Source of the DNA: Allomeiothermus silvanus DSM 9946
GTDB lineage: Bacteria > Deinococcota > Deinococci > Deinococcales > Thermaceae
DNA: 64,000 nt
NCBI RefSeq assembly: GCF_000092125.1
Contig: NC_014212.1
Location: forward strand, 2,566,279 to 2,630,278
Direction of reading: 5' to 3'
Shown here piece after piece: positions 32,416 to 52,667 of this stretch; positions within the stretch are counted from its first letter, which is position 1, and each line of letters starts with the position of its first letter. The notes under the pieces were generated by a model. That model was not told the DNA's origin and ran no database searches. It was given only the letters and a program-made list of their open reading frames with translations. A program made the translations under genes and the position numbers.

Positions 32416-33102
32416 TTGAAGAGCGCCCGTAACAAGCTGGCCCGGCGCTGGCACCAGCTAATGGGTACCCTTGGAATCGCGGTTGCTTTGCGAAGCAAAC
32501 ACGCCTTTGAAGAAGCCGCCTGGGGTGTGTTCGAAGACCTCTGCCGCCGCTACAGCGAACCCCACCGGGCGTATCACAACCTATCCCACCTTGAGGCGCT
32601 GTTTTCTCTACTAGACGAGTACGAAATCCCCGAACGCCCTGCCGTCGCATTGGCGGTGTGGTTTCACGATGCTGTCTACGACCCCACCCGTACCGACAAC
32701 GAGGAGCGAAGCGCTCTGCTGGCACAGACCCAGTTGAAAGGATTGGAACTCAAGGCTTCGCTGCGCGAGCGGGTGGGCGAGCTGATCCGGGCCACCCAGA
32801 CCCATCAGCCCACGGATGCGACCGCGGTCTGGCTGCTCGACGCGGACCTGGCGATCCTGGGGTCCGAACCCCAGGTGTACTTTGCCTATGCCCGGGCAAT
32901 CCGGCTCGAGTACGCCTGGATGCCCCAAGAACGCTACCGAGAGGGGCGGGTGCGGATTCTGACGGGCTTTCTCGAGCGCCCACAAATTTACCATACCGCG
33001 CCTTTTCGCCAACGCTTCGAAGCCAGCGCCCGGCAGAATCTGACTGAGGAAGTGCTGCGCTTGAGGAAAACCGGGGGTGAGAGAAGCCAAACCCTAACTT
33101 AA
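32416..33102 (+). CDS. HD-type metal-dependent phosphohydrolase-like protein
   Basis: A 228-residue predicted HD-superfamily hydrolase. The pattern is RYSEPHRAYHNLSHLEALF and VALAVWFHDAVYDPTRTDNEERSA, with the HD pair in WFHDAVYD, as in a family often annotated as predicted metal-dependent HD-superfamily phosphohydrolase. Substrate unknown. A 27-bp palindromic repeat (32483-32509) inserts in frame and adds about nine residues (ALRSKHAFE) between the first two helices. The start is TTG at 32416, since the conserved RWHQLMGTLG lies upstream of the first ATG at 32461; this start is uncertain. Confidence 0.78.
   Translation: MKSARNKLARRWHQLMGTLGIAVALRSKHAFEEAAWGVFEDLCRRYSEPHRAYHNLSHLEALFSLLDEYEIPERPAVALAVWFHDAVYDPTRTDNEERSALLAQTQLKGLELKASLRERVGELIRATQTHQPTDATAVWLLDADLAILGSEPQVYFAYARAIRLEYAWMPQERYREGRVRILTGFLERPQIYHTAPFRQRFEASARQNLTEEVLRLRKTGGERSQTLT
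32483..32509 (-). repeat. 27-bp palindromic repeat, inverted copy inside HD gene
   Basis: Reverse orientation relative to the copies at 33484 and 37112, with one mismatch. The core TTGCTT-TGCG-AAGCAA is a 6-bp hairpin. In frame within the coding region. Confidence 0.85.
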
Positions 33103-33135
33103 CACCCTGCCCAAAGCCATCTCACGCTCAAGGCG

Positions 33136-33141
33136 TACCTT
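33136..33141 (+). promoter_or_regulatory. Leaderless-type -10 box
   Basis: TACCTT ends 7 nt before the ATG at 33149. Confidence 0.35.
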
Positions 33142-33148
33142 GAGAAGC

Positions 33149-33706
33149 ATGAAAAAAGCATTCTTGCTCCCCATTGTGGGTGCGCTGTTGGCGAGCTGTG
33201 GCGTGGTCGAGGTCAAGCTGGTTCCCCCGGTCATCAGCAACCTTCAGAGCCAGGCAACGTTCTGTACCAACCGCGACACCCTAATTGACTTCCGCTTCGA
33301 TAAAAACGGGCTCCTGACCCGGCTCGAGGTCTATGTCACCAAGGACGACCCCAACTTCAAAGCTCCCACCGATGACCCCGAGGCCAAATACTTAGGCGAC
33401 GTGAAGTTCTTCGATCTGGGCAATAACAACATCGTCTCCTACATCGCCGCTGACACCGACGGCAACGGGCGGATCCAAAGCCTCAAAGACGTGTTTGCTT
33501 CGCAAAGCAGCAAAGACGTGTTTGCTTCGCAAAGCAACGGGGTAAATGCCCAGACCATCGTGGTGACTCCAGTCCCTCACCGGCTGTGGGTGCGCGGATT
33601 CAACGTAACCGAGGGCAGCGCTTTCGTAAAGGCCGATAACGCCATCACCCCTAGCAGCGATCCCAACTGCGACCCCATCTTCCCCTACGGCGATCCCAAC
33701 CGCTGA
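33149..33706 (+). CDS. Lipoprotein of unknown function with in-frame repeat
   Basis: A 185-residue secreted lipoprotein: MKKAFLLPIVGALLASC gives a lipobox (LLAS/C) at residue 17. The mature part is beta-rich (LIDFRFDKNGLLTRLEVYV, VSYIAADTDGNGRI) with no family I can name. Two tandem in-frame copies of the 27-bp palindromic repeat (33484-33537) insert KDVFASQSS and KDVFASQSN. The stop codon TGA overlaps the first base of 93-bp repeat copy 3. The upstream TTG at 33140 is less likely as the start. Confidence 0.8.
   Translation: MKKAFLLPIVGALLASCGVVEVKLVPPVISNLQSQATFCTNRDTLIDFRFDKNGLLTRLEVYVTKDDPNFKAPTDDPEAKYLGDVKFFDLGNNNIVSYIAADTDGNGRIQSLKDVFASQSSKDVFASQSNGVNAQTIVVTPVPHRLWVRGFNVTEGSAFVKADNAITPSSDPNCDPIFPYGDPNR
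33484..33537 (+). repeat. Two tandem 27-bp palindromic repeats in coding frame
   Basis: Units 33484-33510 and 33511-33537 differ only in the last base. Each is nine codons and contains the hairpin TTGCTT-CGCA-AAGCAA. They lie inside the lipoprotein gene. Confidence 0.92.
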
Positions 33707-33798
33707 TCGCGTTTCCCACCATTACGCCGCACACGGTGAGGCGTAATGTACTCGGCACAGCAAATCCCGCTGTGCCGAGTATTCGTGGGAACCGCTCT
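33706..33798. repeat. 93-bp dispersed element, copy 3
   Basis: Starts at the last base of the lipoprotein stop codon. Its second hairpin is a perfect 13-bp inverted repeat (TACTCGGCACAGC with GCTGTGCCGAGTA), whereas copies 1 and 2 have two mismatches there. Confidence 0.9.
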
Positions 33799-33832
33799 GA
33801 GGAGGAATTTGTTGCGCTGCTGCGCTCTTTTC

Positions 33833-34402
33833 TCACCCGAAGAGCGTCAACCGGGTATCCTCTGGCGCCCCCGTAGGAGCCTCGAGCACCCCCTCGGCTT
33901 GGGCCAGGTTCACCGTCACGAACTCGAAGCGTTCGTAGGGTTCAATCTCGATCACCGGGCGCTGGGGTTGCAACAGGTAGAGCCCGGCGCTATGCAGGGT
34001 CTGAAAAGGCTTGGCCAGGGAGAGAAAGTCGGAAAGCCGGACCCCTTTGGGAACCTCGAGATCCCCGGCGAGAAAATAGCCCGAGTACAACAGGGCGAGC
34101 CTGCGCCGCTCGACCATAGCCCGGGAGGTACGCAAGGTGGCGGGACGACCTCCGACGAGCCAGCGGATATGGTTTTTCTGCACCGCTACAAAATTGATGC
34201 TGGCCTTGAGGTCTTTGGGATCCGGGGGGTGCTGGTGGCCTGCTTCGTAGAGCAAGACTCCGGTAGTGGGGAGGTAGTTTTTCCCCTCGGCGTTGAGCAA
34301 GTCGGCCGTACCACCACCAGGGATGAGGTACATCATCCCATAGAGCCGGTAGTGGGTGGTGTGGATACGGGCCTCATACGCCTCACGAGGTTGCCGATAC
34401 AC
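33833..34402 (-). CDS. Hypothetical protein, coupled to recJ
   Basis: A 189-residue protein of no family I recognise. Visible features: THYRLYGMMYLIPGGGTADLLNAE, a central FVAVQKNHIRWLVGG, and a C-terminal FEFVTVNLAQAEG, suggesting a compact beta-rich cytoplasmic protein. The GTG start at 34402 has an AGGAGG site 6-7 nt upstream and overlaps the 3' end of recJ by 20 bp, so it is probably co-expressed with recJ. A longer start at 34459 would overlap recJ further. A role in DNA repair is only suggested by position. Confidence 0.7.
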   Translation of the reverse strand: MYRQPREAYEARIHTTHYRLYGMMYLIPGGGTADLLNAEGKNYLPTTGVLLYEAGHQHPPDPKDLKASINFVAVQKNHIRWLVGGRPATLRTSRAMVERRRLALLYSGYFLAGDLEVPKGVRLSDFLSLAKPFQTLHSAGLYLLQPQRPVIEIEPYERFEFVTVNLAQAEGVLEAPTGAPEDTRLTLFG

Positions 34403-36554
34403 GCCTTCCCTCCTGTGAACCGGGGGGCGATCCCCTATCGGAGTAGGGTCCCGGGGCAAGCTCCCACCAGCGCTCCAGCGCCTCAGAGAACACCTTCGCC
34501 CATCGGGCTCGGTACGCCATCCCCAGCCGCCGCCCCAGCGCCGCCCGCAGGCTGAGCTGGCGGTAGGTAGCCGAGGCGTATAGGTTTGCCCCCTCGGCCA
34601 GGGCCGGACTCCTCAAACCCAGTTCGTCGAATACCGCAGCCCGGGGTTCCCCAGGGGTCAGGCCCCGCTCCCAGGCCGCGACAACCTTGCGGAAATGGGA
34701 TTTATCCACCTGGGGAACGAGCCCATTCAGCGCTTTCTCGGAAAGGGCAACCCGTACGACGCCGGGGTGGGAAACCGCCGACTCCGGGAGGCCGAACCAG
34801 ACTTCGGCTTCCTCTGCGCAAACCACCGGAACCCCTCGAGCAGCGAACCAGGCTGCTCCCTCGGGGGCCACATACACGGGTAACTTCGCCCCTACAACCT
34901 CCTGCAAAACGCTCCGAAAGGGAACCGGTTTGGCCCAGCCCGCGTCGTCGGGCAGGACCTCGCCTGGCTCTGGGGCACGGTAGGCGAGGGCTCGCAGCTC
35001 GAGCGCCCGTTCTCCCTGCCACTCGTTCAGGGTCAGGCTGGCGGCTAGTTCAACCTCGGCTTGCGGCAGATTCTCGCCGGAGTCTTTCCAGCGCACCACC
35101 TTGATCCCATCCAGGTAGAACCGCAGGTGGCGGCCCTCGCCCATCGTGGCCACCTTCTCCGGCTTGCCCCGCAGGTAGAAAAGGGGCTCGGGGTTTTCTT
35201 GGCCCAAGGGCTCGAGGAACTGCAAAGCTTCGTACAGCTCGGTGAAGTCTTCCCCGGTGAGGCTTCCGTCAAGGTAGACTTCCGCAACCGGGGCCGGGTG
35301 CTCCGCCACGTAACGGTAGACGGCTTCCCGAAAGGCGGGGATGTTCTCCTCAGCGATGGCGAACCCGGCGGCCTGCGCATGCCCGCCCAAGCGTTTGAGG
35401 AACTCGGCGCTGGCCCGCAACGCCCCTACCGCGCTGATGCCGGGCGTCGAGCGCACACTGCCCTTCCCCTCGGCGATGATGAAGACTGGCTTGTAAAACC
35501 GCTCCAAAATCCGGCTGGCCACAATCCCCATAACCCCCGCATTCCCCTCCGGATCGTGCACTACGTAAGCTGGAGCCGCGTGGTCAAGAGTAGGTAACAC
35601 CCGGTTGAGCATCTCCTCTTCGATCCTCTGACGGCGGGCGTTGAGCGTATTCAGGTCCTCTGCCAACTGCCGAGCAGCCAAGAGATTATCGGTGGTGAGC
35701 AGCTCGAGCGCCAATTCAGCCTGTCCCAGCCGCGAAGCGGCATTGATCCGAGGAGCGATGCGGAAAGCCACCTCCACCGCGGTGTAGTCCTTGCAGTGCT
35801 GGCTAGCTAGCTCACGTAAGCCCAGGTGGGCCGATTGGCGCAGCTGACGCAACCCCTCTTTAACCAAAGCCCGGTTGAAACCCAAAAGCGGAGCCACGTC
35901 CGCAATGGTTCCGATAGCAGCCAGATCGGCGAATTCCACCGGGGCCCCCAGCCCCAACAATTCCCTGACTTTCCACAAAAGCAAATAGGCCACCCCCGCT
36001 CCCGTGGGGTGGGGAAGCCCGTTTAGCTCGGGGGTTAGGGCCGGGTGGACGACAAGACCCGGAGGCGGAGTCTCGCCCGGCGAGTGGTGGTCGGTGACGA
36101 GCACGCCGATCCCGTGTTCGACCAGGCTCTTGAGTTCGGCGTGGTTGGAGATGCCGCAGTCTACAGTGATGAAAAGGTCACAGGCCTCGAGGTGCTCAGG
36201 AATCCGTTCCATCAACACCCCGTACCCCTCATGGAGCCGGTGGGGTACGAAGGCATGTACCTTAGCCCCTAGCCGGGCCAGCCCACCCAGCAAAATCGCC
36301 GTTCCGGTTAGGCCGTCGGCATCGTAGTCGCCATGGATACGGATGCGCTCTCCCTGCTCGAGGGCCCGAACCACCCGCCAAGCAGCCTCCTCCAAGCCCC
36401 GTATCGGCAGCAGCTCGAGGGGAGGATCGAGCAGCGCAGGATCACGAAAACCCCGGTTGAAAAGTACCGCCGCCGCCAAAGGGGGAATCCCCAAGGTGGA
36501 CATCAAAGGCTCGAGAGAAGCACGGCTGGGCCAGGGACGAAAGCGCCAAATCAT
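34383..36554 (-). CDS. recJ: Single-stranded-DNA-specific exonuclease RecJ
   Basis: A 5'-3' exonuclease of the DHH family used in recombination and mismatch repair. It is 723 residues, longer than E. coli RecJ because of a C-terminal extension, as in Thermus and Deinococcus. Motif I is DYDADG at residues 76-81; VDCGISN follows; DHH is at residues 155-157 (VTDHHSPGE). The DHHA1 region has GIVASRILERFYKPVFI and GGHAQAAGFAI. The C-terminal 200 residues are of the less conserved extension type. It is followed by the overlapping hypothetical gene. Confidence 0.95.
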   Translation of the reverse strand: MIWRFRPWPSRASLEPLMSTLGIPPLAAAVLFNRGFRDPALLDPPLELLPIRGLEEAAWRVVRALEQGERIRIHGDYDADGLTGTAILLGGLARLGAKVHAFVPHRLHEGYGVLMERIPEHLEACDLFITVDCGISNHAELKSLVEHGIGVLVTDHHSPGETPPPGLVVHPALTPELNGLPHPTGAGVAYLLLWKVRELLGLGAPVEFADLAAIGTIADVAPLLGFNRALVKEGLRQLRQSAHLGLRELASQHCKDYTAVEVAFRIAPRINAASRLGQAELALELLTTDNLLAARQLAEDLNTLNARRQRIEEEMLNRVLPTLDHAAPAYVVHDPEGNAGVMGIVASRILERFYKPVFIIAEGKGSVRSTPGISAVGALRASAEFLKRLGGHAQAAGFAIAEENIPAFREAVYRYVAEHPAPVAEVYLDGSLTGEDFTELYEALQFLEPLGQENPEPLFYLRGKPEKVATMGEGRHLRFYLDGIKVVRWKDSGENLPQAEVELAASLTLNEWQGERALELRALAYRAPEPGEVLPDDAGWAKPVPFRSVLQEVVGAKLPVYVAPEGAAWFAARGVPVVCAEEAEVWFGLPESAVSHPGVVRVALSEKALNGLVPQVDKSHFRKVVAAWERGLTPGEPRAAVFDELGLRSPALAEGANLYASATYRQLSLRAALGRRLGMAYRARWAKVFSEALERWWELAPGPYSDRGSPPGSQEGRRVSATS

Positions 36555-36662
36555 CCAACACTCCTAAGGGTCGTACGTTTGCGAGAGCGGCTCGAAGACT
36601 TTTTACACTACGCCATCAGCGATGAGCAATCTTTGAACGTACAGCGTAGCGCGTATGGCACT

Positions 36663-36980
36663 TCACTGTACCTCGGGGCGGTCGGGTATGCGTACTACCT
36701 CTTCGGGGTGGGCCCGGCGCAGGGCCTCGATCTCACTCCTCAGTTTGCGCAGTTCCCCAGCCCGGCGGCGTGCAGTGCGCTGAAACTCCCACCAGCTAGC
36801 CAGGAGAAAAAGGCCCATCACCCCTATCCCCGCAGCAAACTCTCCCGCCAGCAAGTACGCCACGTGCACGCTTCCCCAAGGAGTCCCTATCAGCAAGGTC
36901 GGCTCGAGGCGGTACAGGCCATAGCTCATCCCGATCACGCCCAGGGTAAGCACCATGGCAAGCCAGTTGAGAATCTTCAT
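36663..36980 (-). CDS. LapA-like small membrane protein
   Basis: A 105-residue protein with two transmembrane helices (residues about 4-22 and 43-63) and a basic C-terminal coiled coil (RAGELRKLRSEIEALRRA). This resembles the LapA (DUF1049) family, whose E. coli member assists lipopolysaccharide assembly control; the role in Thermaceae is unknown. TAGACT 6 nt upstream supports the ATG. Downstream, 36555-36662 shows no gene. Confidence 0.7.
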   Translation of the reverse strand: MKILNWLAMVLTLGVIGMSYGLYRLEPTLLIGTPWGSVHVAYLLAGEFAAGIGVMGLFLLASWWEFQRTARRRAGELRKLRSEIEALRRAHPEEVVRIPDRPEVQ

Positions 36981-36986
36981 GGCCTT

Positions 36987-36992
36987 AGTCTA
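36987..36992 (-). promoter_or_regulatory. Leaderless-type -10 box
   Basis: Minus-strand TAGACT ends 6 nt before the ATG at 36980. A CGGCTA-CGAA-TAGCCG hairpin (36994-37009) lies just upstream of it. Confidence 0.45.
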
Positions 36993-37111
36993 ACGGCTAC
37001 GAATAGCCGTACGTCTTACGTCCTACGCCAAAAGCGGGCCAGTAGCGCGTGGTGCGGGGCTTGGGGTCCACCTGCCACAGGCCCCCTTCACGTAGACGCA
37101 CCGTGCGACCT

Positions 37112-37138
37112 CAAAGACGTGTTTGCTTCGCAAAGCAA
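37112..37138 (+). repeat. 27-bp palindromic repeat, intergenic copy
   Basis: Identical to the second unit in the lipoprotein gene. It lies in the spacer between hisA and the LapA-like gene, where no coding role is evident. Confidence 0.92.
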
Positions 37139-37149
37139 CCCACGCTCCT

Positions 37150-37851
37150 TTACACCCATCGCCGCAAATCAATCCGCCCTTCGTACACAGCTTTGCCGGT
37201 GATAGCGCCTTCCACCCCCAGCTTGTGTAGGCCCTCGAGATCGGCATCGCTGGCGATTCCGCCCCCTGCGATCAGGTACGCAGGCCAGGCTTCCCTAACT
37301 CTTCCTATCACCTCCCAATCGAGCCCCGCCAGCGTGCCGTCGCGGCGGACATCAGTGTAGATGAGAGTGTGCACGCCCATCCGGTGCATGGTTTTGGCCA
37401 GATCCCGCACATCCTGGGCAGTACCCTCGGCCCATCCTGCGACTACTACCTCCAAGCCCTTAGCATCCAAGCTCACCGCCACCCGCTCCGGGCCGAACTC
37501 GGCCAGCATGGCCTCGAGCAGCGCAGGTGCTTTCACGGCCAGCGTACCTACCACCACCCGCGCGGCTCCCAAAGCGAGCAGTTCGCGGGCGGCTTCCAAG
37601 CTGCGCACCCCACCCCCCACCTCAAAGGGGATGGAGAGGTGTTCCGCAATCCGCCGCAAAACCGCCCGGTTCTCCCCTCTCCCAGTAGCCGCGTCAAGGT
37701 CCACTAGGTGCAAGAACTGCGCTCCTTGGCTTTGCCAGTGCAACGCAGCCTCGAGCGGGTCTTCGAAGTAAACGGTTTCTCGCTCGGGGTCGCCCCCCAA
37801 AAGCCGCACCGCGCGGCCCCCTTGGATGTCTACAGCGGGGATTACCAACAC
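37150..37851 (-). CDS. hisA: Phosphoribosylformimino-5-aminoimidazole carboxamide ribotide isomerase
   Basis: HisA performs the Amadori rearrangement in histidine synthesis. The 233-residue TIM barrel starts MLVIPAVDIQGGRAVRLLGG, with the catalytic Asp in PAVDIQGG, the phosphate-binding GGGVRS and AGGGIAS motifs, and the second catalytic Asp in YTDVRRDGT. The GTG start at 37851 is supported by TAGAAT 6 nt upstream. It is not next to other his genes here. Confidence 0.95.
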   Translation of the reverse strand: MLVIPAVDIQGGRAVRLLGGDPERETVYFEDPLEAALHWQSQGAQFLHLVDLDAATGRGENRAVLRRIAEHLSIPFEVGGGVRSLEAARELLALGAARVVVGTLAVKAPALLEAMLAEFGPERVAVSLDAKGLEVVVAGWAEGTAQDVRDLAKTMHRMGVHTLIYTDVRRDGTLAGLDWEVIGRVREAWPAYLIAGGGIASDADLEGLHKLGVEGAITGKAVYEGRIDLRRWV

Positions 37852-51274: not shown

Positions 51275-52667
51275 GAGATACCATCAAGGGGTGTGGAAAT
51301 ACGCTGAGGGCGGTGTATCCTTCCTCCTGGCAAAAAAGTGAGGGCTTGAAGCCCGAGGGAGGAGGCACACCGCCATGGGGAAGCGTACCAAAGTGGCTGC
51401 TTCGCCGATAGGCGAACACCTTGAGGCCCGTTCGTCATCTCCCACCTGGGAGACGTTGCGGGATTGGCTGAGGGGGAAGATCCGGGAGTTGATGCAGGGG
51501 CTGCTGGAGGAGGAAGTGACGGAATTTCTGGGCCGTGCCCGGTATGAGAGGCGGGCGGCCGTCGATGCGTGCGGTTACCGCAACGGCTACGGCAAGCCGC
51601 GGAAGCTGACGACCTCCATGGGCACCATCGAGGTGCGGCGGCCCCGGGTCCGGGGGGTGGAGGAGCGGTTCGAGAGCCGGATTCTCCCCCTGTTCGCCCG
51701 GCGCACGAGGGAGGTCTCGGAGCTGTTGCCCGAGCTGTACCTGCACGGGCTGGCCGAGGGCGACTTCGACCTGGCCCTGCGGGGGCTGCTCGGAGAGGAG
51801 GCGGCGCTTTCGGCCCGGACGGTAGCCCGCCTGAAGGAGCGGTGGCAGGCGGAGTGGGAGGCCTGGCGCACGCAGCGGCTGGACGACCGGGCGGTGGTCT
51901 ACCTGTGGGTGGACGGGGTGTACGTGAAGGCGGGCTTGGAGCGCGAGCGGGCGGCGCTCTTGGTGGCCATCGCCGCCTTGTCGGATGGCCGCAAGGTGGT
52001 GGTGGCGGTCGTACCCGGGTACCGGGAGTCGGTGGAGAGCTGGTCGGAAGTGCTGCGGGACCTGCGGGAGCGGGGGATGAACGCGCCGCGGCTGGTGATC
52101 GGGGACGGGCACCTGGGGATCTGGGGGGCACTGCGCAACGTGTGGCCGGAGGCCGACGAGCAGCGGTGCTGGAACCACAAGGTGCTCAATGTGCTGGAGC
52201 AGTTGCCGCGCCACCAGCAGGCCGTGGCCAAGCCCATGCTGGGGGCCATCGCCTACGCGCCGACCCGGGCGGAGGCGGAACGGAAGGGCAAGGAGTTCGA
52301 GGCCTGGTGTCACCGGCACGGCTACGGCAAGGCGGCGCAGACGCTGGGGCGGGACTGGGAGCGGATGGTGACCTTCTACCGGTACCCCAAGGAGCACTGG
52401 CGCCACCTGCGGACCACGAACGTGATCGAATCGCCCTTCGCCGCACTGCGGCTGCGGACGGATGCGGCCAAGCGGTTCAAGAAGGTGGAACGGGCCACGG
52501 CAGTGATCTGGAAGATGCTGATGGTGGCCCAAAAGAGGTTCCGGCGGTTGAATGCCCCGGAGTTGCTGGCCAAGGTCCACGCCGGGGTGCGCTACGAGGA
52601 CGGCATCGAGGTCACCCAGGAGGAGGTCGCTGCCTGAGCAGGTTTACACACCTATTGACGGAACCTC
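51275..52667 (+). mobile_element. IS256-family insertion sequence, complete
   Basis: A 1393-bp element with imperfect inverted ends (GAGATACCATCAAGGGGTG at the left; the complement of the right end is GAGGTTCCGTCAATAGGTG), bounded by the 9-bp duplication GGATGTGCT (51266-51274 and 52668-52676). It encodes one intact transposase. Confidence 0.9.
51375..52637 (+). CDS. IS256-family transposase
   Basis: A 420-residue mutator-type DDE transposase. The N-terminal region has MQGLLEEEVTEFLGRARYER and CGYRNGYGKP; the catalytic region has YLWVDGVYVKAGLE (first Asp), RLVIGDGHLGIW (second Asp), the C/H motif in EQRCWNHKVLNVL, and RTTNVIESPFA with the final Glu. It reads straight through without frameshift and is probably functional. 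It is much more GC-rich than the gene it interrupts. Confidence 0.95.
   Translation: MGKRTKVAASPIGEHLEARSSSPTWETLRDWLRGKIRELMQGLLEEEVTEFLGRARYERRAAVDACGYRNGYGKPRKLTTSMGTIEVRRPRVRGVEERFESRILPLFARRTREVSELLPELYLHGLAEGDFDLALRGLLGEEAALSARTVARLKERWQAEWEAWRTQRLDDRAVVYLWVDGVYVKAGLERERAALLVAIAALSDGRKVVVAVVPGYRESVESWSEVLRDLRERGMNAPRLVIGDGHLGIWGALRNVWPEADEQRCWNHKVLNVLEQLPRHQQAVAKPMLGAIAYAPTRAEAERKGKEFEAWCHRHGYGKAAQTLGRDWERMVTFYRYPKEHWRHLRTTNVIESPFAALRLRTDAAKRFKKVERATAVIWKMLMVAQKRFRRLNAPELLAKVHAGVRYEDGIEVTQEEVAA

Follow-up and report, generated by a model that had tools for sequence, protein, structure and literature searches.

Among the described repeat systems, the SDR1-8 elements of Nostoc and its relatives appear to be the closest in size and behaviour to the repeats analysed here. 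SDRs are about 20-27 nt long, dispersed, sometimes tandem and apparently mobile without a known enzyme, and their differing sequences share one common hairpin that is backed by compensatory changes (PMC2884548), all traits in which the repeats of Thermaceae are alike. Another example is the Rickettsia palindromic elements (RPEs) and the Wolbachia palindromic elements, which lie in frame within unrelated conserved genes, are open in several frames and are presumed neutral (PMC2229807; PMC10969869); RPEs measure 105-146 bp and form long stem-loops (PMC2229807). The GTAG/CGTC REPs are stem-loops of 20-40 bp with T/A-rich first pairs and variable stems and loops, some of them intragenic and often located in DNA repair genes, and the account of their superfamilies leaves Thermus and Meiothermus unmentioned (PMC3733652). 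Likewise, a literature search of incomplete coverage returned no description of such repeats in Thermaceae.

In the window, i.e., the whole 64-kb stretch of Meiothermus silvanus DNA that was analysed, a search with CAAAGACGTGTTTGCTTCGCAAAGCAA allowing up to three mismatches returned exactly four matches, as against an expectation of 0.00 from 100 dinucleotide shuffles (0/100 with a match). This confirms the earlier note, which had reported four near-identical 27-bp units, one inside an HD-like gene, two in tandem in a lipoprotein gene and one between genes (Table 1). The frames are open in both orientations, as that note had also claimed: the lipoprotein gene reads KDVFASQSN from the plus strand (twice, one copy ending in S), and the unit on the minus strand contributes VALRSKHAF/ALRSKHAFE close to the N-terminus of the HD-like protein. 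A Pfam search with the HD-like and lipoprotein-like proteins matched no family. Other parts of the initial description need narrowing. "Palindromic" applies to the core TTTGC-TTC-GCAAA alone, the remainder of the 27-mer being non-palindromic; 27 bp is one unit length among several, the family also comprising units of 24, 30 and 33; and the 27-mer is not the conserved entity, since what stays constant is a collar, whereas the hairpin that it encloses is exchangeable. Immediately 3' of the lipoprotein gene (33702-33801) lies a separate dispersed repeat of ~100 bp, GATCGCG..ATTACGCC..CTCGGCACAGCAAATCC.., with ~25-30 further copies in Meiothermus silvanus and none seen in the sister species with the same query.

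Table 1. Units and the genes that carry or flank them (positions in the window unless a contig is given).
Feature	Position	Strand	Remarks
HD-like protein gene	32416-33102	+	228 aa, TTG start in ORF list; one unit
27-bp unit CAAAGGCGTGTTTGCTTCGCAAAGCAA	32483-32509	-	1 mismatch; in frame in HD-like gene
HD-like gene unit, preferred register	32482-32508	-	after TTC, ends GCAAC
Lipoprotein-like gene	33149-33706	+	ATG at 33149; two units
Lipoprotein unit 1 of tandem pair	33484-33510	+	1 mismatch; KDVFASQSS; preferred register 33485-33511 after CCTC
Lipoprotein unit 2 of tandem pair	33511-33537	+	KDVFASQSN; preferred register 33512-33538
LapA-domain gene	36663-36980	-	one flank of intergenic unit
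Intergenic unit	37112-37138	+	between LapA-domain gene and hisA
hisA	37150-37851	-	other flank of intergenic unit
IS256/Mutator-type transposase	51375-52637	+	carries family unit
Hairpin unit core GTGTTCGCCTATCGGCGAAGCA	51398-51419	-	in frame, N-terminus of IS256/Mutator-type transposase, read AASPIGEHL
recG tandem array (L143/L127)	G000:C1:1456452-1456776		11 units

The family has the form (CCTC)^ spacer - GTG - hairpin - GCARC^, of which the 27-mer is one size class: a spacer of 3-7 nt is followed by GTG, a stem of 5-9 bp closed by a 3- or 4-nt loop, and GCARC. Copies are not limited to the window locus. Genome-wide searches of Meiothermus silvanus DSM 9946 (3,249,394, 347,854 and 124,421 bp; PMC3035272) found the 27-bp class in ~20 copies; the pattern of the wider family, GTGTT-N5-24-AAGCARC, matched 86 times, as against 4 for the reversed control. 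By hand count ~74 of the 86 form a hairpin, a few of them with one mismatched pair, and 17 belong to a class riding in copies of an IS256-type element. The collar pattern gave 35 matches versus 2 for the control in the sister species (G001), 47 versus 1 in a member of another Thermaceae genus (G049, genus g5) and 0-10 versus 0 in most Thermus genomes, with genus g3 near background; all of these counts come from searches with patterns and models.

Relaxed searches recovered more copies with altered stems around a constant GTGTT...AAGCARC. The stem types include TTTGC/GCAAA, TTCGC/GCGAA, TTCCC/GGGAA, TTGCC/GGCAA, TTCTCC/GGAGAA, TTCCCC/GGGGAA, TTTCGC/GCGAAA, TTTGCCC/GGGCAAA and TTTGCCCGC/GCGGGCAAA. 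Stem covariation is demonstrated in alignments that took in non-hairpin matches too, with 13 double-change cells versus 5.5 expected among 21-nt cores and 12 versus 2.7 among 24-nt cores (0/500 shuffles as high in either case), and the signal is gone once the partner is shifted by one column. Such double changes could arise whether the hairpin is under selection or serves as a template for copying. The folding energies predicted for single units were no better than those of shuffles, and Rfam matched no known RNA family at the units. Two further hairpin motifs were observed alongside: TTCGCCGAGCGNAGCGAG, a short palindrome that adjoins several units (L033, L043, L105, L150) and could represent another family of small repeats, and ATGTTCGCTTCGCGAAGCAGCC, a related hairpin that several Thermus species have at the same position of a repeated locus (L058-L072), which is probably a transposase gene.

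Several broader attributions were rejected. The TTTGC-stem pattern has 30 matches in 85,000 bacterial species, where we estimate that ~15 would arise by chance, so a wide bacterial distribution finds no support; Thermaceae among the 30 are Thermus composti, Meiothermus hypogaeus and two MAGs. A DNA uptake signal is at odds with only tens of copies per genome and with background levels in many Thermaceae genomes, and a phage-borne element with 0 and 2 exact matches across all viral contigs. One peptide and one plasmid locus served as queries against plasmid records and gave no match, in a collection from which the records of the genome itself may be missing.

Comparison with close relatives shows that the units are insertions. 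In the sister species, whose orthologous stretch lies on contig C9, the HD-like orthologue lacks exactly 27 nt (9 aa) between alignable flanks, and the lipoprotein orthologue lacks exactly 54 nt (18 residues) at GCGCCTC^GGGGTG with both flanks conserved, as befits a tandem pair. The intergenic copy does not provide a clean empty site, as G001 lacks the entire ~126-bp interval around it (37019-37144). Further empty sites were found for 30 nt at GCGCTC^GAGGCC (L106), 30 nt at GGCTC^GAGGAAT (L185) and 27 nt at GAAGCC(T)^TTCAG (L010), as well as for 24 nt in the bacterioferritin gene, at ATCCT^CTTCC, where G049 was compared with three Thermus genomes. At the level of sequence comparison, these sites show evolutionary mobility in two independent pairs, Meiothermus silvanus versus G001 and G049 versus Thermus. 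Presence, absence and copy number also vary between species, which agrees with the insertion reading of the earlier note and, in tandem loci, shows growth of arrays: one Meiothermus silvanus gene has five in-frame units versus one degenerate copy in G001, and recG has 11 head-to-tail 30-bp units near the N-terminus (QDVFAQRAKQ repeated; RecG by Pfam) versus 0.

The clean empty sites define the borders of the units. A single register fits all units, each of which begins directly 3' of CCTC, or of a sequence close to it, and ends in GCARC. The CCTC flank is well established, each of its positions being conserved in 75-80 of 95 copies, and no conserved base follows GCARC. In this preferred register the empty sites carry no duplication, and apart from the hairpin the units have no terminal inverted repeats, which sets them apart from MITEs; for the class located in CTCGAG, an alternative reading is a 4-bp CGAG duplication. 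Neither are they CRISPRs or minisatellites, as copies are mostly single and dispersed rather than confined to arrays. CTCGAG, in which the 30-nt class sits, is the commonest hexamer of the window, with 163 occurrences versus 21 expected from base composition and 141 expected from its own pentamers. SDR5 reportedly sits in the over-represented octamer HIP1, a placement that the CTCGAG class parallels.

Of the 76 measurable copies, 72 have a length divisible by three (24, 27, 30 or 33 nt), namely 55 of 59 CTC-anchored single copies and 17/17 tandem units. Spacer and hairpin lengths offset each other to yield these values: with 8 collar nt each, combinations of 3+13, 6+13, 7+15 and 3+16 give 24, 27, 30 and 27 nt, and 6+16, 5+17, 6+19 and 5+20 give 30, 30, 33 and 33 nt. 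Because the anchor of single copies was taken as the nearest CTC, part of this statistic depends on that choice, but tandem periods and empty sites do not. In addition, members of one subfamily are related by descent, which leaves about eight subfamilies, rather than 76 copies, as independent support, and the chance of the pattern is ~(1/3)^8, not (1/3)^76. Most units have at most two stops over the six frames and 6 of 10 tested units have none, a figure that is suggestive only, given that 15-20% of random hairpins of the same size are also stop-free. Most likely, the multiple-of-three rule reflects survival, in that only unit lineages that spare genes multiply in a coding-dense genome.

In-frame units occur on both strands in genes for bacterioferritin, SigA, RecG, ThiE, the CCA-adding enzyme, an intein and IS256-type transposases. 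The bacterioferritin of G049 carries SVFPSGSN between IERIL and FLEG, a peptide that its PDB relatives lack; the alignment with one PDB bacterioferritin shows 8 extra aa, and most of the ~50 matched chains differ by the same length. SigA of G049 has units in its acidic N-terminal part, where the neighbouring sequence varies too much for the empty site to be placed exactly. The gene of the CCA-adding enzyme contains a net 24 nt that are absent from G001, the glycerate kinase gene contains a unit where G001 has a degenerate one, and an alpha/beta hydrolase gene contains three. In the ribonucleotide reductase intein of G049, the unit lies in the LAGLIDADG part (~aa 500 of L181) and is thus a mobile element inside a mobile element. 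The 17 genome copies of the IS256-borne class indicate that the IS takes the smaller element along, i.e., that some copies spread passively inside IS256 copies. Altogether 52 of 103 copies fall in called genes, as judged with a rough gene caller, versus ~85% of the window that is coding; genic insertions are therefore common and yet under-represented, as expected if some are purged. Genic status was assigned from gene calls and homologues, sliding codon scores being too noisy near short genes.

The likeness to RPEs proposed in the earlier note is one of behaviour, not of descent. In-frame insertion is shared, as exemplified by Bfr, SigA, ThiE, the CCA-adding enzyme, RecG and the HD-like and lipoprotein genes, but RPEs are palindromes of ~100-150 bp, four to five times longer than the 24-33 bp of the Thermaceae units, and the two have no sequence in common and belong to different phyla. 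With this qualification, the reading of the repeat as a mobile, coding-compatible palindrome is supported. The SDR likeness extends further, to dispersed repeats of 21-27 nt with a common hairpin and compensatory change, a size range that units of 30 and 33 nt slightly exceed. Unlike SDRs, the Thermaceae units belong to another phylum, have a constant GTGTT...AAGCARC collar, insert 3' of CCTC, are locked to multiples of three in length and often lie in frame in conserved proteins.

Collectively, the 27-bp unit is very probably a very small non-autonomous mobile element made of a collar and an exchangeable hairpin, with a length that is a multiple of three. Such a unit would insert directly 3' of a CCTC/YTC tetranucleotide without obvious target duplication, and its collar GTGTT...AAGCARC would be kept as the stem interior is swapped for other complementary sequence. 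Because of its length and its mostly stop-free frames, a copy landing in a gene would usually add 8-11 residues that are tolerated. Copying may be performed by an activity, provided in trans, that has the hairpin as its recognition signal, either in single-stranded DNA or in RNA, and tandem arrays may grow by slippage or by insertion beside an existing unit.

As for the nature of this activity, one possible if unlikely explanation is that the units are REP-like or IS200/IS605-derived hairpins moved single-stranded by a trans-acting Y1 (TnpA/RAYT) transposase, which would cut 3' of CCTC and after GCARC. The hairpin, the fixed tetranucleotide at the 5' border, the lack of target duplication and reinsertion beside itself suit Y1 chemistry as established for IS608 and ISDra2, and Meiothermus silvanus and G001 have five and one Y1_Tnp matches, respectively. 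The ends of IS200/IS605 elements likewise combine a subterminal hairpin with a fixed tetranucleotide that borders the insertion, and REPs are of similar size, form hairpins and occur in DNA repair genes, as does the recG array. However, the 99% complete draft of G049, the richest small genome, gives no Y1_Tnp match despite its 47 elements, G002 has six Y1_Tnp matches and a background element count, and the two numbers are uncorrelated across 50 genomes. Nor is a strand bias relative to dnaA apparent by eye (~20 loci versus 18, with the origin set at dnaA, an ORF reading as such at the chromosome start and followed by one reading as dnaN, and the terminus at mid-chromosome). In contrast to IS200/IS605 ends, the units have a single hairpin and no internal transposase; in contrast to REPs, they form head-to-tail tandems with periods that are multiples of three. 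The REP tags are not conserved either: GACG/CGTC appears only in spacer classes ending in GAC, being absent from the TCG, GAG, AAG and CTA classes, and GTAG does not appear. The anatomy of the units makes a Y1 transposase the obvious candidate, but neither G049 nor the numbers fit it; transposition as single-stranded DNA may instead rely on a different enzyme.

A route via RNA or cDNA, like the one proposed for the cyanobacterial SDR elements, is quite unlikely. Compensated stems point to a folded strand, roughly half of the copies are genic, and the units resemble SDRs in size and behaviour, but within genes the units occur in both orientations, antisense included. It is distinctly improbable that the units are a by-product of replication, in which quasi-palindromes perfect their stems by template switching, expand by slippage and disperse by chance microhomology or transformation. 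Stems do lengthen stepwise at the loop end (TTTGC, TTTGCCC, TTTGCCCGC), as snap-back copying predicts, arrays of 2-11 units are present and Thermaceae are naturally competent; nonetheless, slippage leaves unexplained both the clean insertion of full collar-hairpin units at unrelated sites 3' of CCTC and the near-chance frequency in other bacteria. Finally, that selection on the protein keeps the insert as a functional linker or epitope is hardly credible despite the in-frame sites in conserved proteins, because several forward and reverse frames yield unrelated peptides (SVFPSGSN, RCSLREAT, VASRREHR, AASPLGEH), so that it is not the peptide that spreads, because about half of the copies fall outside called genes and because orthologues manage without the unit.

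For the mobile collar-hairpin element, the combination of an exchangeable stem, a fixed collar, a CCTC target and a length in multiples of three appears to be new. A more specific version, which we regard as a serious possibility although short of probable, is that a dedicated Thermaceae system copies the hairpin via the collar alone, 3' of CCTC, with the stem as free cargo and with spacer and hairpin tuned to each other by evolution, which keeps all successful subfamilies at lengths divisible by three; the units would then be selfish DNA adapted to life within genes and would rank with the smallest mobile elements known. The mobility of DNA as short as 20-30 nt has been an open question since SDRs were described, and this family makes it testable, since its borders and target motif are defined, its empty sites are clean and its hosts (Thermus) can be cultured and transformed. 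The multiple-of-three rule provides a clear case of a selfish element apparently shaped by living inside genes, and the inserts in SigA, RecG and bacterioferritin of some Thermaceae are to be read as invasions, not as evolved domains.
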